From the NCBI GenBank assembly GCA_913009315.1, contig CAJVZA010000009.1, positions 1-39,970 on the forward strand: a stretch of 39,970 nucleotides of DNA. The letters are read 5' to 3'. The notes under the pieces are model-generated. The model saw nothing but the letters and a program-made list of their open reading frames with translations. It was not told where the DNA came from and did no database searches. Every line of letters begins with the position of its first letter. Position 1 is the first letter of the stretch. The stretch is from an uncultured Hippea sp. Its GTDB lineage: Bacteria > Campylobacterota_A > Desulfurellia > JAADFJ01. Positions 7,723 through 39,970 of the stretch are shown here, piece by piece. Both the position numbers and the translations under genes were made by a program.

Positions 7723-8235
7723 CTATAGTTCTGTCATTTCAGAATTTGCAATTTCCATTATTTCCTTTAAAACCGCCTTTTCGTATTCGGCCGCCTTGTC
7801 GCTTCTCGGCTTTGTTTTTATACCTTCTATTATCATTTGAGCCGGAGAAGTATCCCGTTTTACCGATTGAACATCAATTCTTACCGCGGCGGTTTTGCCG
7901 TTTGATTCAAGCGGCTCTTTAATTACTGTTGCCTTTGCCGATATGCCGAAGCTTATATCACCGGCATATACCGTTTCGATTATTATTCTTCCGTCTCTTT
8001 TGATGTTTTGAATAGTTGTCGAATCGGTTACTATTCCGGCATAGATGATTTTCTTGTTAGGGCAGTAAAATAGTGAAATCGGAGCGGTGTTTGGAGAGCC
8101 GTCCTCATTTGTCGAGCCGACAATATTTACTATCCTGTTCGGATTTTCATTAAAAAGCCTTGCCAGATCGATAATCTTTTCTTTACCCCTGTGAGATAGT
8201 TTCAGAACAAGACTATCGGATACTATTTTTGCCAT
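7723..8235 (-). CDS. Pyridoxamine 5'-phosphate oxidase-fold flavin/F420-binding protein
   Basis: 170-aa split-barrel protein distinct from the one at 6246-6770. NPNRIVNIVGSTNEDGSPNT (31-50) and the following APISLFYC are the usual first strands; the TIQNIKRDGR segment lies at the dimer/cofactor face. The protein is cytoplasmic with no signal peptide. The start is set by GGAGA five bases before the ATG and lies inside the tail of the TetR gene (23-base overlap), so regulator and first target gene are cotranscribed. The cofactor (FMN, F420 or haem) and reaction cannot be decided from sequence. Confidence 0.72.
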   Translation of the reverse strand: MAKIVSDSLVLKLSHRGKEKIIDLARLFNENPNRIVNIVGSTNEDGSPNTAPISLFYCPNKKIIYAGIVTDSTTIQNIKRDGRIIIETVYAGDISFGISAKATVIKEPLESNGKTAAVRIDVQSVKRDTSPAQMIIEGIKTKPRSDKAAEYEKAVLKEIMEIANSEMTEL

Positions 8236-9067: not shown

Positions 9068-11683
9068 GTGAGCGAACTGGACAAGCCGTATAATCCGTCA
9101 AATTTCGAGACAAACTGGTACAAACTTTGGGAAGAACAAGGGCTTTTTGAGCCGACGGAAACAGGAGAACCGTTTTGTATGGTGCTGCCTCCGCCGAATG
9201 TAACAGGAGTTCTTCATATAGGACATGCTTTAAATCAAACACTCCAGGATATTATAGCAAGATATAAGCGCATGAAAGGTTACGATGTTCTGTGGGTGCC
9301 GGGAACCGATCATGCCGGGATAGCAACTCAGAATGTTGTCGAAAAAGAACTGGCAAAAAAAGGTATAAGCAGATTTGATCTCGGCAGAGAAAAATTCATA
9401 GATGAAGTGTGGAAATGGCGTGCCGAATATGGCGATAGAATAGTGGATCAAATAAAGCATCTCGGATCATCTCTTTCATGGAAACACCAGCGTTTCACTA
9501 TGGATGATGACATGAGCATGGCGGTTAAAACCGTTTTTGTCTCTTTATATAACAAAGGTCTTATCTATAAAGGCAATCGTATGATAAACTGGTGTCCAAG
9601 ATGCTTAACAGCATTATCGGATCTTGAGGTTGAACATACCGACAAGTCAGGTTTTTTGTGGTACATTAAATATTGCTTAAAAAACGATAATTCAAAAAGT
9701 ATCATTGTTGCAACAACAAGACCTGAAACACTTTTTGGCGATACGGCAGTTGCAGTCAATCCGACTGACGACAGATACAAAGAATTTATCGGCAAAACCG
9801 TTCTGGTTCCATTTGTAAATCGAGAAATTCCGGTTATTGCCGATGATTATGTTGATCCTGAATTTGGAACAGGCGCACTCAAGATTACTCCCGCTCATAG
9901 CCCAAACGATTTTGAGATAGGAAAAAGGTTTAATCTCCCTGTAATTTCTGTTTTCACGGATGATGGAAAAATGAACAACCAGGCATCAAAATTTGAGGGT
10001 CTTGATCGCTACAGCTGCAGAGAACTGGTTGTAAAAGAATTAAAAGAAGCAGCACTGCTCACCGGCGAAGAACAATATATGCATAGCATAGGTCATTGTT
10101 ACAGGTGCAAAACCGAGACAGAGCCGAAAATAAGCGAGCAATGGTTTGTAAAGACAAAAGAGATGGCTAAAACGGCTAAACAGGCTATAATAGAAGGTGA
10201 GGCACGTTTTGTTCCGGCCCAATGGGAAAAAACATTTTACGAATGGATGGATAATATTTATGATTGGTGCATATCACGCCAAATCTGGTGGGGACATCGT
10301 ATTCCGGCATACTACTGCGACGATTGCACCAAAGTAGTAGTTGCAGCAGAACCGCCTGAGAAATGCCCGATATGCGGCGGAAATATGCATCAGGATGAAG
10401 ACGTTCTGGACACGTGGTTTTCATCGGCACTGTGGCCTTTTTCTACCTTAGGATGGCCGACAGACACGAAACTGCTTGAACGATTCTATCCGAATTCAGT
10501 AGTTGTCACAGGATTTGATATAATCTTTTTCTGGGTGGCAAGAATGATGATGATGGGGATAACCTTTATGAATAAGGTTCCATTTCGTAATATTTATATA
10601 CATGCACTTATTAGAGATAAACATAAACAAAAAATGAGTAAGTCAAAAGGCAATGTTATTGATCCTCTTGTTGTTATATCTAAGTATGGTGCGGATTCTG
10701 TGCGCTTTACCCTCGCCGCTTTATCTATTCAGGGACGGGATATCCTGCTTTCGGAAGAAAGAATTGAAGGATTCAGACGTTTTGCCAACAAAATATGGAA
10801 CGCATTCAAACTGATTAAAAAGCTTTTGGACGGCAGGATCGTACCCGACATTATGCCGCAGCACAGCACAACAACGGCAAGCTGCTGGATCATAACCGAA
10901 GCAAATCAAACCGTTGAACAGATATCTTATAATTTGGATCGCTATCATTTTCATGAGGCTGCAGATGCCATTTACGGTTTTATATGGCATAAATTCTGTG
11001 ATGTTTATCTTGAGATAGCCAAAAAGGAGATTAAACGGCATCCGAATGAAACGATCTTTACTCTTGCCGGTATTGCCGGAGTAGTTTTGAAGAGCCTGCA
11101 TCCGTTTATGCCGTTCGTAACCGAAGAAATCTGGTCTTCCATGCGCGAAATTCTGCAAAACGGACAAACAACCTATCTGATGAAAACCCGATTTCCAAAA
11201 TCGGGAAATGGCTTTCTTGCAGACTATAAAGACGAACATAAAAATATGGAGTCCGTACTCGATGCAGTCAAACTTATAAGATCTCTCAAAAGTGATCTTG
11301 ATATTTCAACAAGAGAGATCGTTGATGTCAAACTTATATCTTCCGATAATTCTGTTTTTTACAAATGCAGGCAGTATATTGAACAGTTGGCATTTGTGCG
11401 TATTGTTGATGACAATCTGACTGGTGCGCACAGAATAGGTGATTCTGTCGAGATTATTATTGAAGCGACCGGCAAAGAAAAAAAGAAGGCGGCATTAAAA
11501 ATTGACAAAGAAGCTGAAAAATTGAGAAATAGAATTGTTCAGCTTGAAAAAAGGCTTAATAACAGTGGATTTCTGGAGCATGCGGAACACTCTGTTGTTA
11601 TTGATATAAAAATAGAGCACAAGCACGATCTTGAACAGATCAGACAGCTTGAAAAGAAAATACTGGAGATTGATAAATTATGA
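9068..11683 (+). CDS. valS: Valyl-tRNA synthetase
   Basis: Charges tRNA-Val with valine, class I synthetase, 871 aa. PPPNVTGVLHIGHALN (41-56) contains the HIGH motif at 50-53; KMSKS lies near residue 522 in KQKMSKSKGN. The editing (CP1) domain lies between, with TTRPETLFGDTAVAV. DWCISRQIWWGHRIP marks the ValS/IleS/LeuS group. The C-terminal 70 residues are the ValS coiled-coil arm that touches tRNA (EKEKKKAALKID, then LEKRL). The start is a GTG; GGGAG lies 5-9 bases before it, and the ATG four bases upstream is in another frame. First gene of a long plus-strand run; it overlaps the next gene by ATGA. Confidence 0.97.
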   Translation: MSELDKPYNPSNFETNWYKLWEEQGLFEPTETGEPFCMVLPPPNVTGVLHIGHALNQTLQDIIARYKRMKGYDVLWVPGTDHAGIATQNVVEKELAKKGISRFDLGREKFIDEVWKWRAEYGDRIVDQIKHLGSSLSWKHQRFTMDDDMSMAVKTVFVSLYNKGLIYKGNRMINWCPRCLTALSDLEVEHTDKSGFLWYIKYCLKNDNSKSIIVATTRPETLFGDTAVAVNPTDDRYKEFIGKTVLVPFVNREIPVIADDYVDPEFGTGALKITPAHSPNDFEIGKRFNLPVISVFTDDGKMNNQASKFEGLDRYSCRELVVKELKEAALLTGEEQYMHSIGHCYRCKTETEPKISEQWFVKTKEMAKTAKQAIIEGEARFVPAQWEKTFYEWMDNIYDWCISRQIWWGHRIPAYYCDDCTKVVVAAEPPEKCPICGGNMHQDEDVLDTWFSSALWPFSTLGWPTDTKLLERFYPNSVVVTGFDIIFFWVARMMMMGITFMNKVPFRNIYIHALIRDKHKQKMSKSKGNVIDPLVVISKYGADSVRFTLAALSIQGRDILLSEERIEGFRRFANKIWNAFKLIKKLLDGRIVPDIMPQHSTTTASCWIITEANQTVEQISYNLDRYHFHEAADAIYGFIWHKFCDVYLEIAKKEIKRHPNETIFTLAGIAGVVLKSLHPFMPFVTEEIWSSMREILQNGQTTYLMKTRFPKSGNGFLADYKDEHKNMESVLDAVKLIRSLKSDLDISTREIVDVKLISSDNSVFYKCRQYIEQLAFVRIVDDNLTGAHRIGDSVEIIIEATGKEKKKAALKIDKEAEKLRNRIVQLEKRLNNSGFLEHAEHSVVIDIKIEHKHDLEQIRQLEKKILEIDKL

Positions 11684-13545
11684 AAAATATATTGAAACTG
11701 CTGCTTGCAGTCATCTTTGTTTTATTTTACGATTCTGCTTACGCCGGATATATCGGAACTCTGAGAAGCGACATTGAAAAAATTGTAGCGCCTGTATCGG
11801 GAAAAATTACAAACGCAAACAAGAAGTATATCGTGATTGATAAGGGATCTGCCGATAATATCAGACCGGGGGCTGTTATTTCAGTTTTCAGAAATTACGG
11901 AACTTATAAGCAAGACGGCAAAATCATACATCTTAAAAAAGTTGTATGCTACGCAGTCGTAGAAAAAGTAAGTAATGACAGATCTGAAGCTAAACCGATA
12001 TATGGAGTAGATGAAAAAGAGCATACCCTCTTATATATTATTCCTGACGGCTGGAAATATAAGAATCTTAAAGTACAAAAAGGTGATCTGTTTACTCTTA
12101 ACTCCGGCAGACAAAAGGTTGCAGTACTCACTAAAAATCCCGCACTTTACAACAAATTGAAGAATGGGCTTAAAAATGTAGATTTTGTTGACAAAGATTG
12201 GCTTGATACCAACAGGGTTGATCTAAAAATTTATGGTACCGATTGGAAGCGTCTGCCCGACCTTGCTTTTAAACTCGGCATTGATTATTTTCTGATTCCA
12301 AGACTTGTTCGAAAACAAAATAAAGCAGCTCTGAATCTTACGGTTATTGCCGGCATGTCGGGAAAAAGAATAGGCAATATCTCGGTTTCACTAAATAACA
12401 TTCAATATGCTGCCCTAAAGAAAAAGATGAAAAAATCGGAAATTTTAATAAATCCAAATAATATTACAGTTAGCAGTCTTGATCTTCAGTACAGACAAAC
12501 TCTTATTGATAAGCTTTTGGGCAAAGCCGGTATAAGCCTGCATCACGGCAATTATCAGATGGCAATTGCCGGACTTAATCCCATTGCAATTCTAAAAGAT
12601 ACATCTGTGGCAACAGATCTAACAATCGGCGGCATAAACGGAGATGAAAATTACCGGATTGTCGTAGCATCAGACGGATCGGCAACAATTTATAGCTATC
12701 AAAACGGTGACGTGCAAAAACTTCAGGAGCTCTCACCGATAAATGTTGCGGCTGTTGATCTATTCAAAAGTCTCCTGATAATTTCAGGTTTCAATCGTTA
12801 TGGTGCGATAAAATCAATAATTTATAGATATAGAGACAAAACAAATAGGTTTGTTAAGTTATCGGAAACGGATTCATGGATGAGATTTGTTCATTGGAAC
12901 GGCAAGGTCGTAGTTGCAAGCCAATCCGGCAGTATCGATCGATTATTTACTTCCAGGCTGTATCTCTATGCGATAAAGAACAATCGACTTGTAAAATTTG
13001 CAGATGTCAGCTACATCTCAAAGATGGCATCATTTTTCAATTGGGACAGTTTCACGCGTGGGAATAAGCAGTTTCTTATATATCTTTCCGAAAACGGCAA
13101 TATAGTCATAAGAAATGATGGAAAGGTTATTCGCAAGACAAATTCTGTTTTTGGTTTCGGCAAAAACAGAATAGTACGTTATCCCAATTCTCAAACAACG
13201 GAAAATCCGCAGGACGGGACCGTTTTGATGAGCAGGCCTATAAAATTCTTTTCGAATAAAAACGGTCTTGAAATAACCGTAGTAAGAAATTACAGAACCG
13301 CCGTCATCAATTCACTTTTCAGCAATATATCAAACGGTTCAGCTTTTATGGTCTATAATTTTGATAAATATGGTTTGCACAGGAAATACACATCAGGAAA
13401 TATCTATGGACGATTAAGCGCAATATCGGGAATAAACGATTTGCTTTTGATCGGAAGGGCAGTACCGTCTGATTTTCTGAAACGGCTATGGCAGGGTGAA
13501 AAAGAAAAAGGCGTAATAACCCTAAACCGTATGGAAACCCAATGA
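11680..13545 (+). CDS. Secreted protein of unknown function with FlgT-C-like segment
   Basis: 621-aa protein with a clear signal peptide (1-22, hydrophobic core, AYA before the cleavage site), so periplasmic or outer-membrane associated. Residues about 45-115 (KYIVIDKGSADNIRPGAVISV...) resemble the small beta-barrel seen in FlgT C-terminal and related envelope proteins, with the GS.D.I..G pattern. Residues 140-260 may be an alpha/beta domain (KVAVLTKNPALYNKL...). From about 275 on, repeated short strands such as IVVASDGSATIYSYQNGDVQ suggest a beta-propeller or VCBS-like fold. I do not recognise a named family. It overlaps valS by ATGA and argD by 4 bases, so it is part of the operon. Confidence 0.6.
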   Translation: MKNILKLLLAVIFVLFYDSAYAGYIGTLRSDIEKIVAPVSGKITNANKKYIVIDKGSADNIRPGAVISVFRNYGTYKQDGKIIHLKKVVCYAVVEKVSNDRSEAKPIYGVDEKEHTLLYIIPDGWKYKNLKVQKGDLFTLNSGRQKVAVLTKNPALYNKLKNGLKNVDFVDKDWLDTNRVDLKIYGTDWKRLPDLAFKLGIDYFLIPRLVRKQNKAALNLTVIAGMSGKRIGNISVSLNNIQYAALKKKMKKSEILINPNNITVSSLDLQYRQTLIDKLLGKAGISLHHGNYQMAIAGLNPIAILKDTSVATDLTIGGINGDENYRIVVASDGSATIYSYQNGDVQKLQELSPINVAAVDLFKSLLIISGFNRYGAIKSIIYRYRDKTNRFVKLSETDSWMRFVHWNGKVVVASQSGSIDRLFTSRLYLYAIKNNRLVKFADVSYISKMASFFNWDSFTRGNKQFLIYLSENGNIVIRNDGKVIRKTNSVFGFGKNRIVRYPNSQTTENPQDGTVLMSRPIKFFSNKNGLEITVVRNYRTAVINSLFSNISNGSAFMVYNFDKYGLHRKYTSGNIYGRLSAISGINDLLLIGRAVPSDFLKRLWQGEKEKGVITLNRMETQ

Positions 13546-30138: not shown

Positions 30139-30420
30139 GAGGCTGTTGATAAACTTCTATGTGTCACTGTGAGCGTAGCAGCAATCTCAGTTTCTTCAGT
30201 GTATCATAGGCATCCTGCCTGTGGTGAGGTTGTGAGCGTAGCAGCAATCTCAGTTTCTTCAGTGTATCATAGGCATCCTGCCTGTGGTGAGGTTGTGAGC
30301 GTAGCAGCAATCTCAGTTTCTTTTCCTTTCTTGCTTTTTGAACAACCAAAAATGAGGTCAGGCTAAGTGATACCTGCTGCTGTTTCAGGTGCTTTGCTAT
30401 GAGATTGCCGCTACGCGCAC
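30139..30420. repeat. MITE-derived structure with 63-bp tandem array
   Basis: The left end (30139-30150, GAGGCTGTTGAT) is the same as the MITE at 6284, preceded by TTAA. No matching right terminus is seen. Inside, GTGAGCGTAGCAGCAATCTC (30169-30188) is complementary, with two mismatches, to 30401-30420, so a long hairpin can form around the tandem array. The element lies between convergent bamA and the glutaredoxin gene; the rest of 30109-30446 shows no gene. It may also serve as a transcription end. Confidence 0.65.
30169..30322. repeat. 63-bp tandem repeat, 2.4 copies
   Basis: Units at 30169-30231 and 30232-30294 are identical; a third starts at 30295 and matches for 28 bases before diverging. 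Because 63 is a multiple of three, open frames with a 21-residue repeat run through both strands (for example VYHRHPACGE); these have no ribosome-binding site and are not considered genes. Perfect identity suggests recent slippage or duplication, or assembly collapse with unknown true copy number. Confidence 0.9.
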
Positions 30421-34988: not shown

Positions 34989-35909
34989 ATGATTACCGAT
35001 TACAAAAAAGGCTATTTTTATCTGACATTTACTATCGTATTAATTTCCGGAATGTATCTGTTGACTAAATTGTCTATCGGGCATGTCAATATTGATTCTT
35101 TTATGCTCGTATTCTTTTTATCTGCTTTTGCGGTCGGTGCTTTTTCAACAACGCTGTTTGCAAAAACCGATCTGACAGGAGAGTTGAGATCTCATTTTTT
35201 GCTTATTCTGATTATCTCGACATTGACGATAATAGGTTCCTATTTTCTGTTTTTATCAGTAGGACGCATCGGAGCAGCTGCCACATCGCTGCTGGCAAAA
35301 CTCCAAACGGTATTTGCCATAATTATAGGTGTGTTGTTTTTGAAGGAGCGATTCAAAAACGGTTCCTGGATAGCCCTGGCCGTAGTAATTTCAGGAAGTA
35401 TCATGGTAGTTTATAAAGGCGGAACATTTGATTTTGTCGGCATCTCATGGATGATTATTTTTGCGGTAAGCAATGCAAGCCAAGCGTATGTAATCAGAAG
35501 ATTTTCAGTGTCACTTGACATGATGGCTGTTAATGTTTGGCGTGCGTTTTTCATAGGAATATTTTTTGCAGCAACAGTTCTGATAAAGTCTAATTTCGAT
35601 ATACCTACAATTAAGTTATTTTTCATAATTGCTATGTCAGGAGTAATGGGAGGATATCTTGCGAGAGGGTTCTCGTATCTTGCGTTCAAATATCTTCCTA
35701 TCTCTATGGTAACAACAATGATGAATGTCGAATCGCTTTTAACCGTTACACTTGCCGCAGTTTTTTTGAATGAGCATTTAAATTCGGTAAATCTTTTCGG
35801 AGGAGCTTTTATGATTTCAGGCGTAGTTCTTCTTATTTTTCTTGAAAGGCAAAATAAATCTCCCAAACAACAAAACAACATTACTGCAGCGCACCCGATC
35901 AAGAAATAA
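34989..35909 (+). CDS. EamA/DMT-family permease
   Basis: 306-aa inner-membrane transporter with about ten hydrophobic segments in two EamA halves. The end of the first half (SLLAKLQTVFAIIIGVLFLKERF, near 100-122) and of the second (MNVESLLTVTLAAVFLNEHL, near 252-271) carry the repeated family signature. Members export amino acids, nucleotides or other metabolites; the substrate cannot be told. The ATG at 34989 follows GGG at a loose distance. An upstream ATG (34981) runs into a stop after three codons. Single-gene unit; codon use like its neighbours. Confidence 0.83.
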   Translation: MITDYKKGYFYLTFTIVLISGMYLLTKLSIGHVNIDSFMLVFFLSAFAVGAFSTTLFAKTDLTGELRSHFLLILIISTLTIIGSYFLFLSVGRIGAAATSLLAKLQTVFAIIIGVLFLKERFKNGSWIALAVVISGSIMVVYKGGTFDFVGISWMIIFAVSNASQAYVIRRFSVSLDMMAVNVWRAFFIGIFFAATVLIKSNFDIPTIKLFFIIAMSGVMGGYLARGFSYLAFKYLPISMVTTMMNVESLLTVTLAAVFLNEHLNSVNLFGGAFMISGVVLLIFLERQNKSPKQQNNITAAHPIKK

Positions 35910-36286: not shown

Positions 36287-36303
36287 AACCTGCATTCCCG
36301 CCC

Positions 36304-37911
36304 TTATTGTAACGAGGGTGGAGGTTTGACTCCCAACTTTTCGTAAAGCTCCATCTGCCGTTTGGTCATTTCTCCGGCATACGACTTATGGCCGGGCTGT
36401 TCAAAACCTTCAATGATATCCAGCTCATCCAGCAGCTCCTGCATCGTGGTGGTTTTGAACAGACCTGTATTCTGCATCCTCTTCTTGATATAGGATAAAA
36501 CAATCAGGGCGAGAAACTCCACAAACAGTTTTCCATCAAGACTCTGTTCCGAGGACACCGACAGTCTCCGAAGATTCAACCGCTCTTTCAGGTTCCCAAA
36601 AGCCTTTTCAATTAGGTCTTTATTGCGGTAAATCTCCAAAGCTTCTATTGGGTCTTTGATGTCGTTGCTCAAAAGAGCAAAATAGCCGTAGTTCTTTTTT
36701 GCCTCTGCAATAGCTTTTTCTTTTGCCATGACCCTGATGCCTCTTACAGGAGTACGGATTACTTCAAAATAGGCGGCATACAACTTTTCATGATCGGTGT
36801 TTCTTTTTTCGCTTTCCAGTTCAATCTGCAGCTTGTGCAGCAATTTATTGAGCGCCTTCTCATGCTCTAAAGCCCTCTCTGCGGAGTAATACAGATGCAG
36901 ATACATTCTTCTTGTGCTTTTGAATGTATCTTCTTTATAGGGACGAGCTTGTGAATACTCCCATTTAATCGGCACAGCATAAGCATACAGGTCATAGGCA
37001 GGACTGTAATGCTTCCAGCTTCTCAATCTGTCCCGTTGTAAATCAAGTCCTGCTTTTACAATCTTCAGTGATGCCCTTGCAGCAATCAGAAACTTCAGAT
37101 GATTCTTGTACAAAGCGTTAATATTATCTGCACTGTAAAAGCCTCGGTCCATAACCAGTTTGATACGGTCAAATCCCATAAACCGGATATCAGCAAGCAG
37201 TTTCTTTATGGTTTTAACATCAGGGATATGTCCGGCAATCTTCCGGTAATAGAATGGAAGCTCAGAGGTCTGGCCAAACAACATGGCAAGGTTGATCTGT
37301 TCCAGCGGATCATTGTCCTTGTTGAATCCGTATTGCACCTGGTTCAGGCACCTGGAATAGCTGGATATCGAGGTTGTGTCGTATACCCAGTACTCCTTTT
37401 CTGCCCTGCGCTTTCCCTGCAGAAGAAAAAAATGCTCTCTTGCCTCCTCCGTGATGGAAGAAAACAGCTCACTGCTTCTTTGAGAGGGGATTATCTTCCC
37501 GTATGGATGTTTATGAATTGCAGACCATCTCGGGAAACGGCTCAGCGGGTTCTTGTCCTCCAGAATAAGGTAATAAGCGATAGAGAGAAGCTGTTTGTAT
37601 TGTTTGGGAAAGCATTTTTTCAAGTCATCCGCCACACCGATGGTCTCCACAATTTTATCAAACAGATAGGTTGCGCCATAAAAGTTGCGGGATATCCCGG
37701 TGATGGGAACCTGCCACCGCACTCTCTTTTCTTTTGAAGTGTCCGATATTCTTTTCCGTGTAGGAACAATCTTTTTTGTTACGGGATCTACCTTACCGAT
37801 GCATTTTCGTTTTGCCCGAGACTGCTTCTTTTCTTTGTCCCAAAAGGATATTGATTTATAGGCATATATCACACCTGTTTTTTTGTTTGTCTGGTATACG
37901 ATTGCTGCCAT
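36304..37911 (-). CDS. IS1634-family (IS4-like) DDE transposase
   Basis: 535-aa transposase that should move the surrounding element. The DDE residues are visible as D178 (WVYDTTS), D255 (VMDRGFYS) and E435 (LIEKAFGNLKERLNLR, the YREK-like region of IS4 relatives). The N-terminal YQTNKKTGVIYAYKSISFWDKEKKQSR is typical of the IS1634 group. A strong AAGGAGGG lies six bases before the ATG. Length is full and no frameshift is seen, so it may be active. GC and codon use are higher than in nearby chromosomal genes, consistent with recent arrival. Confidence 0.93.
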   Translation of the reverse strand: MAAIVYQTNKKTGVIYAYKSISFWDKEKKQSRAKRKCIGKVDPVTKKIVPTRKRISDTSKEKRVRWQVPITGISRNFYGATYLFDKIVETIGVADDLKKCFPKQYKQLLSIAYYLILEDKNPLSRFPRWSAIHKHPYGKIIPSQRSSELFSSITEEAREHFFLLQGKRRAEKEYWVYDTTSISSYSRCLNQVQYGFNKDNDPLEQINLAMLFGQTSELPFYYRKIAGHIPDVKTIKKLLADIRFMGFDRIKLVMDRGFYSADNINALYKNHLKFLIAARASLKIVKAGLDLQRDRLRSWKHYSPAYDLYAYAVPIKWEYSQARPYKEDTFKSTRRMYLHLYYSAERALEHEKALNKLLHKLQIELESEKRNTDHEKLYAAYFEVIRTPVRGIRVMAKEKAIAEAKKNYGYFALLSNDIKDPIEALEIYRNKDLIEKAFGNLKERLNLRRLSVSSEQSLDGKLFVEFLALIVLSYIKKRMQNTGLFKTTTMQELLDELDIIEGFEQPGHKSYAGEMTKRQMELYEKLGVKPPPSLQ

Positions 37912-37929
37912 TTTGCTCCCTCCTTCTTC

Positions 37930-37970
37930 TTATCCATCGTTACAGCATTATACATTGTAACGATGGATAA
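37930..37970. promoter_or_regulatory. Perfect 15-bp inverted repeat ahead of the transposase gene
   Basis: TTATCCATCGTTACA (37930-37944) and TGTAACGATGGATAA (37956-37970) are exact complements around 11 bases. It lies directly upstream of the transposase ribosome-binding site inside the IS. Such a hairpin could limit read-in transcription or translation of the transposase, or bind the transposase. Confidence 0.6.
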
Positions 37971-38084
37971 TGCAAGGGAAATCTTGGCTAATTGATGAAT
38001 ATCATTGCTTTATCAGTGATTACTCGTTACATTTTAGCGGGAATGCAGGTTATTACTGGGATTTGCCAAATTAAATTAAAAATG

Positions 38085-38112
38085 TTGTATATTATGGCAA
38101 TTTAAGTATAAT
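38085..38112 (+). promoter_or_regulatory. Promoter for the restriction endonuclease gene
   Basis: A perfect TATAAT (38107-38112) has TTGTAT (38085-38090) 16 bases upstream. It lies outside the IS right end and 68 bases before the nuclease start codon, so the gene has its own promoter. Confidence 0.5.
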
Positions 38113-38179
38113 GTATATAAAATGTTCGTTGAATAAATAGTTAGCATGCCCAAGCAACAATCATGTAGGAGATGCAAAA

Positions 38180-39250
38180 ATGGGAAATAGAAGATACTGG
38201 TCAATCAGAACAGATAAAGATAATAGGGAAATTCTTTTTGCTGAATTGGCTCAAGGAAAATTGAGGCAAGGATGGGGATATGATGTGACCCAGGATCTTG
38301 TTAAAATACAAAAAATTGTCAAGCAAGGTGGAAAATGGTGGGAACAATTAACTGATACTCAAAATGCTGCACTTCCAAATATGAGAATGTTATCTGATGC
38401 CGAGGATAGCATAAAAATAGGTGATATAATTTTAACTCCAAACCTACCGGAACAAAATTTTTTCTGCTTGGCTGAAGTAACAGGCGACTATTATTTTGAG
38501 AGGCTCAAATTAAACGAAGAAACAGATGTTAATGATTTTGGATTTGATTATGGCCATATTTTGCCTATCAGGCTTTTAACCACAGCAGGCACAGCAGGCA
38601 TTGATAAATACAATAAACATGTACATGCAGAAATCCGTTCTACTCTCCGAACGCCAATGCGGATGTGGAATTTGGACCCATATTCGCAGAGTATTGAAAG
38701 ACTTTTGACATGTTTTAATCAAGGTGAAGACCTTCTTGTGCCATCGACAGGAGAGGCCAGGTTAAATATTGCTTGGGACAACGCTTTCTCGAAAGCTATT
38801 GAAACATTACAGAAAAAACTTACGGAACAGTTAAATGCAAATTTTCAAGCAGCTGAATGGGAAGAGCCAATTAAAACAGTATTAAGCCAACTTTATCCAG
38901 GTGCAAATGTCAGGTGGACAGGCGGTGCTAATGAGCACGGAGCAGACATTGTAATTCAACTGCAAAATCATTTTGGTGATATACCTTGGTTAATTGTCAT
39001 CCAAGTAAAAAATTATACGGGCGAAATAGGCGAAAATGTTCTTAGTCAGATAAGAGAAGCCCATAATTACTACAGCAAAGAAGGAAAGATAATTTTAGGT
39101 GTCATTCTTACTACTGCTGAAAAAAGGTCATCCTTATTTGATGAAGCAAAAGCAAAACTTGAAAGAGAAATTTCCATGCCTATTGAGCTAATATTACGGC
39201 AGAAATTGATAAAAATTATGACGGAAGGTTTAGCTCGCAAAATAACATAA
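38180..39250 (+). CDS. Mrr-type (PD-(D/E)XK) restriction endonuclease with N-terminal reader-like domain
   Basis: 356-aa probable DNA-cleaving defence enzyme. The C-terminal part (about 222-345) is an Mrr_cat-type nuclease: E229, D256 in NEHGADIVIQ and Q275-V-K277 in WLIVIQVKNY give the D...QxK active site of Mrr enzymes, which often cut modified DNA. The N-terminal 165 residues (YWSIRT at 6-11, GWGY at 31-34, GDIILTP at 81-87, FCLAEVTGDY at 95-104) resemble an EVE/PUA-like modified-base reader, though I cannot name the family. No methyltransferase is adjacent, which fits a type IV system. The start has AGGAG eight bases upstream. An attC-like site follows the stop by four bases, so it may be an integron cassette gene. 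Confidence 0.75.
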   Translation: MGNRRYWSIRTDKDNREILFAELAQGKLRQGWGYDVTQDLVKIQKIVKQGGKWWEQLTDTQNAALPNMRMLSDAEDSIKIGDIILTPNLPEQNFFCLAEVTGDYYFERLKLNEETDVNDFGFDYGHILPIRLLTTAGTAGIDKYNKHVHAEIRSTLRTPMRMWNLDPYSQSIERLLTCFNQGEDLLVPSTGEARLNIAWDNAFSKAIETLQKKLTEQLNANFQAAEWEEPIKTVLSQLYPGANVRWTGGANEHGADIVIQLQNHFGDIPWLIVIQVKNYTGEIGENVLSQIREAHNYYSKEGKIILGVILTTAEKRSSLFDEAKAKLEREISMPIELILRQKLIKIMTEGLARKIT

Positions 39251-39253
39251 AAA

Positions 39254-39377
39254 TGCTAACAATTTTATGCACCTGACTGGCGAGCATGTGCGTTTTCTTG
39301 TGGTTTATCAGCTTGTTGCGTTACGCTCGAAGTTGGCAGTTGAACCCACGGCCAGCAGGTGATAATGGTCGTTGGGC
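39254..39377 (+). other. attC-like integron recombination site
   Basis: Imperfect palindrome directly after the nuclease stop. The outer left box reads TGCTAAC (39254-39260, six of seven matches to RYYYAAC) and the outer right box GTTGGGC (39371-39377, perfect GTTRRRY). Inside, CACCTG-A-CTGGC (39270-39281) pairs with GCCAGCAGGTG (39351-39361), leaving one unpaired A, as attC sites leave extrahelical bases. The length of 124 bp is like the long attC sites of chromosomal integrons. No integrase gene and no second site are in the window, so this is a structural inference. Confidence 0.5.
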
Positions 39378-39395
39378 GGTAACACGGAGAATATT

Positions 39396-39554
39396 ATGAC
39401 TAAGAGTGAACAGGAAACGACAACCACTGAGGCCATGAGGAATGCTGTGATCAGCATGGCAGTTGAATCATGGCGATTTGGCAGGGTATTCATCATGGGA
39501 AAAGAAGGTTTAATTAGGATAGGAACCGTCACTTTGAGGAAGGTGAAATTATGA
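39396..39554 (+). pseudogene. Shortened GrpE-like/nucleotide-exchange-type ORF upstream of hsp70
   Basis: A 52-codon frame opens MTKSEQETTTTEAMRNAV and closes with GTVTLRKVKL at an ATGA overlap with the Hsp70 gene. From memory, longer proteins encoded before stand-alone Hsp70 genes share both this N-terminus and a similar C-terminus with a middle of about 100 residues. Here the two ends are joined at about residue 33 (after WRFGRVF). I infer an internal deletion, so the product is probably non-functional. GC is higher than in the main window. If the frame is in fact complete it would be a small coupled protein of unknown role. Confidence 0.4.
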
Positions 39555-39854
39555 AAAATTTTGTGGGCATTGACTTGGGGACAACAAACAGCACTATCTG
39601 TTCTTACGATGGTTTGGAGACCCGCATCTGGAAAAGTCCCCAACAGAATGATGTGACACCGTCGGCTATCTACATCGACCGACGAGGCAACAAACGGATC
39701 GGATTTAATGCTTACAACATGGCACCACACAGCCCTGACAACTCCGCTATGTTGTTCAAGAGACTTATGGGAACCAGTACGCCAGTTCAACTTTCGGCAG
39801 TAAATCTCACCAAAACTCCAGAGGAATGCTCTGCGGAAGTATTGAAAATGCTTT
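39551..39854 (+). pseudogene. Hsp70-family chaperone gene, 5' part only
   Basis: The first 101 codons of a DnaK-like ATPase: VGIDLGTTNSTICSYDG (5-21) is the phosphate-1 motif, and TPEECSAEVLKML (89-101) is the usual helix before the nucleotide-binding lobe continues. After about residue 101 the homology ends: the frame reads an unrelated tail of some 35 residues, while another frame continues as a nitroreductase. Full-length members are about 600 aa. GC near 50% is unlike the surrounding genes, which points to transfer or to joining of foreign DNA. The upstream ORF overlaps by ATGA. Confidence 0.75.
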
Positions 39855-39970
39855 CGGTCATTTTATGTTTGCCGAGCTTAATACAGATGAGGCCGGAGAC
39901 ACAAGTAGCTGGACAAAGGCACAGACTTATCTTGCCCTTGGAAACACGCTGCATACTTTAGCTCGCCTCA
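39844..39970 (+). pseudogene. Internal fragment of an NfsB-type nitroreductase, cut by the window end
   Basis: In the frame beginning at 39844 the DNA reads ENAFGHFMFAELN, then DTSSWTKAQTYLALGNTLHTL. This matches the central part of NfsB-like nitroreductases (compare W..KQ.YL..GN.L in E. coli NfsB). It is not in the Hsp70 frame and lacks an N-terminus of about 120 residues. The junction with Hsp70 falls within the ten bases GAAAATGCTT (39844-39853). It continues past the window edge. It may be a recombination product or a misassembly. Confidence 0.6.

Follow-up and report, generated by a model that had tools for sequence, protein, structure and literature searches.

An Mrr-Type Nuclease Gene Ending in an attC Site: A Probable Lone Integron Cassette in a Genome with Integrase Relicts

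Positions 38140–39371 of the analyzed stretch of DNA (hereafter the window, 39,970 bp, being contig C9 of a 1.74-Mb draft genome that is 87.6% complete) in all likelihood are, or once were, an integron gene cassette of ~1.23 kb. A single ORF for an Mrr-type nuclease ends here in an attC site, and the present state of the element resembles a reduced CALIN. The site at 39254–39377 is a genuine integron recombination site (attC), and it is very probable that the nuclease gene was acquired as a mobile cassette. Support also comes from outside the genome, as the nearest homologue detected is itself carried as a cassette gene by a plasmid of another bacterium. Against a cassette count the presence of an attC on one side only, a genome-wide E-value of 1.15 for the single site and the fact that no intact integrase is seen.

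The Nuclease Gene and Its attC Site

The nuclease gene (38180–39250, plus strand) is a single ORF encoding 356 amino acids. The attC site begins 3 nt after its stop codon, on the same strand and in cassette-like orientation, spans 124 nt and was recovered by two covariance models (R1 and R2), a scanner, a strict grammar and folding. It reads 5'-TGCTAAC-AATTTTATG-CACCTG-A-CTGGC-(69 nt)-GCCAG-CAGGTG-ATAATGGTC-GTTGGGC, with all elements given on the plus strand. The R'' box TGCTAAC (39254–39260) agrees with RYYYAAC at five out of seven positions and is followed by a 9-nt spacer (39261–39269) that includes an extrahelical G at 39269. L'' (CACCTG, 39270–39275) forms 6 bp with L' (CAGGTG, 39356–39361), an extrahelical A follows at 39276, and an inner stem of 5 bp (CTGGC/GCCAG, 39277–39281 with 39351–39355) closes a loop of 69 nt (39282–39350). 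A second 9-nt spacer (39362–39370) leads from L' to the R' box GTTGGGC (39371–39377), which agrees with GTTRRRY at all seven positions. The first-pass annotation of this DNA had described an attC-like site right after the gene, with an RYYYAAC-like and a perfect GTTRRRY box, and both descriptions are confirmed by the distance to the stop codon, the canonical attC grammar and the two box sequences. Its paired inner arms are present as well, and so is the one extrahelical A that it named, to which G39269 has to be added as a second extrahelical base.

Folded as single-stranded DNA, the bottom strand of the site forms a stem of 4+6+5 bp with two single-base bulges, both on one side, which is the bulged hairpin that the first-pass annotation had proposed to look for. 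The top strand folds into a core of 6+5 bp. The energy of the whole 133-nt hairpin is unremarkable against shuffles (z 0.08 and 0.66), and energy alone is therefore no evidence for an attC. The G+C content rises from 37% in the nuclease gene to 50% in the attC site and amounts to 46% beyond it, in agreement with the higher-GC DNA that had been reported nearby.

The Predicted Nuclease and Its Relatives

Residues 226–347 of the predicted protein match the Pfam family Mrr_cat (PF04471; E 1.9e-8, 34.9 bits against a curated cut-off of 21), and the earlier assignment of the gene as Mrr-type thus stands. The catalytic motif G-A-D256...Q275-V-K277 is intact in this C-terminal Mrr domain, and in an alignment with the homologue from Nitrosococcus both GAD and QVK are conserved, with D256, Q275 and K277 kept. 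The protein thus combines the two marks of an Mrr-type restriction endonuclease, i.e., a PF04471 match above the cut-off and the catalytic D and QxK. In PADLOC, weak and partial matches are obtained to PDC-S02 (E 2.9e-7) and to the Mrr-like nuclease region of ZorD (E 1.4e-5), and an NCBIfam search returned no model for the protein. Residues 1–225 matched no Pfam family. A two-sequence profile of this N-terminal region shows a weak resemblance to ASCH-type PUA-like proteins (E 0.05), which offers no more than a lead to a possible PUA-like fold. The single-sequence structure model is poor (pLDDT 39.8) and unfit for searching. The nuclease is probably a modification-dependent, type IV-like restriction enzyme with a putative phage-defence function. 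The cassette had also been credited with its own promoter, a claim that we cannot uphold as only one weak sigma-70-like match is present versus a mean of 5.1 in shuffles.

A tblastn search against plasmids yielded a full-length relative with 52.5% identity, WP_013028125.1, encoded on pNHAL01 of Nitrosococcus halophilus. Its gene starts 29 nt after the GTTAGGC of an attC-like site (7872–7966), and further attC sites are located at 9462–9581, 10174–10249, 11052–11138 and 13067–13183, with a best score of 38.4 bits. Two tyrosine recombinases near the homologue are not IntI according to NCBIfam. On the same plasmid, 9083–13183 (locus L046) appears to be a cassette array, with the Mrr relative, an HNH-endonuclease gene and no integron integrase nearby. 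A further relative occurs on contig C3 of the genome under study, where a strong attC is followed 39 nt later by an ORF (both within C3:36808–37882) that starts Mrr-like (36920–37003; 54% to the first 28 residues of the nuclease, E 5e-4) and continues as an alpha/beta hydrolase. It represents a cassette gene that was truncated and fused by deletion. Both relatives, on pNHAL01 and on C3, begin directly behind an attC. For a third homologue, in genome G351, the fetched 3.7 kb contain no attC, and the family is therefore not only cassette-borne. No Mrr relatives were found in the genome_contigs, viral_contigs or phages sets, and scans of 193 and 386 whole genomes returned, beyond the own genome, G351 only. 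The distribution of the nuclease is sporadic, with full-length relatives limited to a single plasmid record and a single genome out of 386, next to one truncated copy.

Relatives of the host carry cassettes as well. In a congener (G001), short contigs made up of consecutive cassettes contain six attC sites or more, and a genome of the same class (G015) has a cassette array beside an IntI fragment. Cassettes on G001:C81 and G015:C162 match the candidate defence families PDC-S11 (2e-79) and PDC-S18 (2e-92), and an mREase_IV HNH match (2e-23) is also found among these cassette genes. The lineage therefore carries integrons with some defence-like cargo; going by these family matches, part of what the relatives' integrons hold looks like defence. 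The weak and partial PADLOC matches of the window protein would also be in keeping with a housekeeping or selfish nuclease, a reading that is compatible with cassette status. We consider such a role unlikely, given the intact Mrr catalytic motif, the sporadic distribution of its relatives and the candidate defence cassettes that keep company in the relatives' arrays.

Cassette Boundaries and Flanking DNA

The right boundary of the cassette is clear from the attC site; the left one may be marked by GTTAGCA (38140–38146, plus strand), an imperfect GTTRRRY without an attC upstream. In this candidate recombination core the cassette would start at the first T. The GTTAGC sits 40 nt before the nuclease ATG. 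Comparable layouts are seen elsewhere: on C3, an attC of 40.6 bits (R1) terminates in GTTAGC, with the start codon of the related gene 45 nt further on, and in Nitrosococcus the distance from GTTAGGC to the start codon of the homologue is 29 nt. Based on this comparison, the left boundary would be at 38140. Neither an attC nor an attI was identified to the left of the nuclease gene at 38050–38139.

An IS1634-family element (36289–38049, minus strand; NF033559, E 2.5e-88), delimited by CCTGCATTCCCGC terminal repeats, lies 131 nt upstream of the nuclease gene and is not part of the cassette; it is the IS that the first-pass annotation had placed beside it. Its transposase (NF033559) is encoded at 36304–37911 on the minus strand, its ends were fixed via an internally deleted copy at C14:20741–20868, and no target-site duplication is seen at 36289–38049. 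Downstream of the attC (39399–39961, plus strand), a decayed remnant of an operon comprising a small gene and Hsp70 is present (ORFs 39399–39554 and 39551–39961; Hsp70 E 5.3e-10). Compared to relatives in 35 diverse genomes, ~222 bp were lost in frame from the first gene. The Hsp70 homology stops after ~101 amino acids, 120 nt before the contig end, and these last 120 nt match nothing among the fetched sequences. The contig ends 593 nt past the attC, in apparently rearranged DNA. The Hsp70 operon was also considered as a usual cassette itself and was rejected, as no attC is present just upstream of it in relatives. Since the relatives' operon has no attC in front, entry of the cassette by the Hsp70 operon may have involved a non-classical site. 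The search for an empty site did not bring one to light: congeners have the transporter gene at 34989–35909 but lack the sequence that directly follows, and 38045–38185 has no real match elsewhere. Further upstream in the window, a perfect 63-bp tandem repeat (30168–30322; 2.5 copies) directly follows a BamA-like gene.

The IS1634 element 131 nt upstream, which lacks a visible target duplication, the rearranged operon downstream and the missing left attC would also fit a history in which a real attC was left behind by a lost neighbouring cassette and the Mrr gene became adjacent to it via an IS-mediated or other rearrangement. We deem this history improbable because the attC follows the stop codon at a distance of 3 nt, as in cassettes, and because the homologues on pNHAL01 and C3 also start just after an attC.

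Significance of the Site and Integron Relicts in the Genome

The attC scanner evaluates R boxes plus paired arms, and sites in fetched integron arrays score 15–25. With a score of 18.5, the window site ranks first among 15 hits in 420 kb of DNA that is for the most part not from integrons, and just one other hit there passes 18. The strict attC grammar has a single match in the window, none in 380 kb from elsewhere and none in 12 Mb of shuffled window sequence. This grammar is post hoc, as it was written once the site was known, though from the canonical layout. Applied to the Gemmatirosa array, it identifies 11 sites; most class 1 sites, with their shorter stems, escape it, making it specific rather than sensitive.

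Covariance model R1, trained on 13 attC sites taken from other organisms, has 39254–39377 as its sole hit in the window (18.6 bits; E 0.021, valid for these 40 kb only). Model R2, built from 53 matches with the window's own site left out, likewise has this site as its sole hit (26.1 bits, E 2.6e-4), so that a covariance model trained without the site recognizes it. Applied to 320 kb of sequence that included 21 unrelated loci, R2 matched the window site and the Nitrosococcus array only; a second mixed set gave one hit of 21.8 bits and one of 12.6 bits. In a whole-genome search, the window site on its own is modest (17.7 bits, E 1.15). R1 sites of 15–19 bits in the congener arrays sit at proper cassette boundaries, and the score of the window site is therefore within the range of real sites. 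An Rfam search gave no match, as expected, and the similarity of plasmid DNA to the attC sequence is at chance level only.

Other contigs of the same genome also contain attC sites. R2 detects them on C3 (50.6 bits), C23 (48.2), C1 (41.7), C69 (36.8) and C18 (29.1), with a weaker second attC on both C1 and C18, resulting in pairs. The training set of R2 included the sites on C3, C23, C69 and C1; that of R1 did not, and R1 scores them at 40.6, 35.1, 24.2 and 21.1 bits, respectively. Typical cassette cargo adjoins these sites: an isochorismatase-like protein on C3, a VOC protein on C18 and MazF- and RelE-like proteins on C1 (the proteins on C18 and C1 being named by eye). On C23, the start of an ORF at ~72–152, MKNNNFFFNDTATTEIYTLSLHDALPIS, looks like a translated sequencing adapter, and this contig end is probably contaminated; the C23 attC lies outside the suspected region, at 781–851.

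An IntI relict at C14:32253–33195 is split over three reading frames, in which the R, HxxR, H and Y motifs are all readable and which score 240, 91 and 64 bits against TIGR02249. Both frameshifts might stem from errors in the draft consensus. The upstream side, where an attI would be expected, meets the contig end after 163 nt. C69 holds a C-terminal IntI fragment (723–968). The scan for intI and additional attC sites that had been advised thus returned both, the former as relicts on C14 and C69. No intact integron integrase is visible in the 88%-complete draft, which was covered by searches and by reading the sequence near their hits, and both relicts are located off the window contig. A complete integron, with a functional intI and an attI by the array, is consequently not what these two relicts represent, and the window contig has one attC where a CALIN has at least two clustered attC sites without an integrase.

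Although its 133-nt fold is energetically no better than shuffles and its genome-wide E-value is ~1, the palindrome is very improbable as an ordinary hairpin with a chance likeness to attC: an intrinsic terminator is rejected for want of a T run or terminator-like site and a genome repeat element for its single copy, its spacings, box and extrahelical base are exactly canonical with no strict match in 12 Mb of shuffles, and real attC sites occur elsewhere in the genome. The first-pass annotation had named three findings that would speak against the site, i.e., a missing model hit, the lack of further attC sites or an integrase in the genome and a fold without the bulged hairpin; each was checked, and the site was refuted by none.

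Proposed Mechanism

In the most likely course of events, an integron integrase would have bound the folded bottom strand of the attC and recombined it, with the cut in the R' box GTTGGGC placed between its first G and the following TT. The cassette could then have been inserted into an attI, an attC or a non-classical site. The gene product would probably cut modified invading DNA, and restriction of modified phage DNA is a plausible task for it. Decay of the integrases and scattering of attC sites would have left a lone attC without an integrase, and mobilization would then depend on an integrase supplied in trans. The cassette is now lone and, as the draft shows no intact integrase, probably immobile. 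More speculatively, and with considerable doubt, an Mrr family with a possibly PUA-like reader might spread between phyla chiefly as a cassette, and the lineage might keep dispersed defence cassettes at attG-like, non-attI sites after integrase decay.

Comparison with Known Systems

In 2025, integrons were described as stores of defence genes in Vibrio and in mobile integrons (as reviewed in PMC12409362 and cited in PMC12444791), and defence-gene cassettes are credited to Darracq et al. 2025, Getz et al. 2025 and Kieffer et al. 2025 by the citing articles (PMC12444791, PMC12409362). Among the genes that the review places in integrons are restriction genes of types II and IV that are reduced in size (PMC12409362). 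Insertion at attG sites is attributed to Loot et al. 2024, as cited in PMC12901181. Defence cassettes in integrons are thus already documented, and the window cassette is ordinary in kind; as both mechanism and element class are known, no new field is opened. What it adds is a putative restriction-type defence gene in the integron cassette pool of a small-genome lineage, together with relatives' arrays that contain candidate defence genes and a nearest gene relative that is a cassette in another phylum. This supports the recent view of integrons storing anti-phage genes, outside the well-studied Vibrio and clinical integrons.

With integron cassettes in general (class 1, sedentary chromosomal, CALIN), the window shares the single ORF and the canonical 3' attC, and its site is one of several scattered over its own genome, with arrays in a congener. 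Unlike them, it has a lone attC, neither a left attC nor an identified attI, and integrase relicts only. By default, IntegronFinder 2 reports a CALIN only with at least two attC sites (PMC9024848). The layout of 39254–39377 is that of class 1 integron attC sites (e.g., GTCTAAC-AATTCGTTC-AAGCCG-A-CG...CG-CGGCTT-9 nt-GTTRRRY), with the 9-nt spacers, the 6-bp L boxes and the extrahelical A in common. The homologue on pNHAL01 (WP_013028125.1) is likewise a restriction endonuclease (~53% full-length identity) that follows an attC-like site and has more attC sites downstream; it differs in the ~0.4 kb and small ORF between its stop codon and the next attC, in the attC sequence and in the phylum. With Mrr/type IV modification-dependent enzymes and PDC-S02, the 356-residue protein shares Mrr_cat with GAD...QVK, and it is similar in size to the PDC-S02 models (308–390 amino acids). 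It differs in its N-terminal region, which matches no Pfam family, and the PDC-S02 match is just E 2.9e-7, mostly over the nuclease part. The window cassette differs from the defence cassettes of 2025 in its Mrr type with this particular N-terminal region and in its small-genome lineage. Like those cassettes, it carries a small, single restriction-type gene as its cargo.
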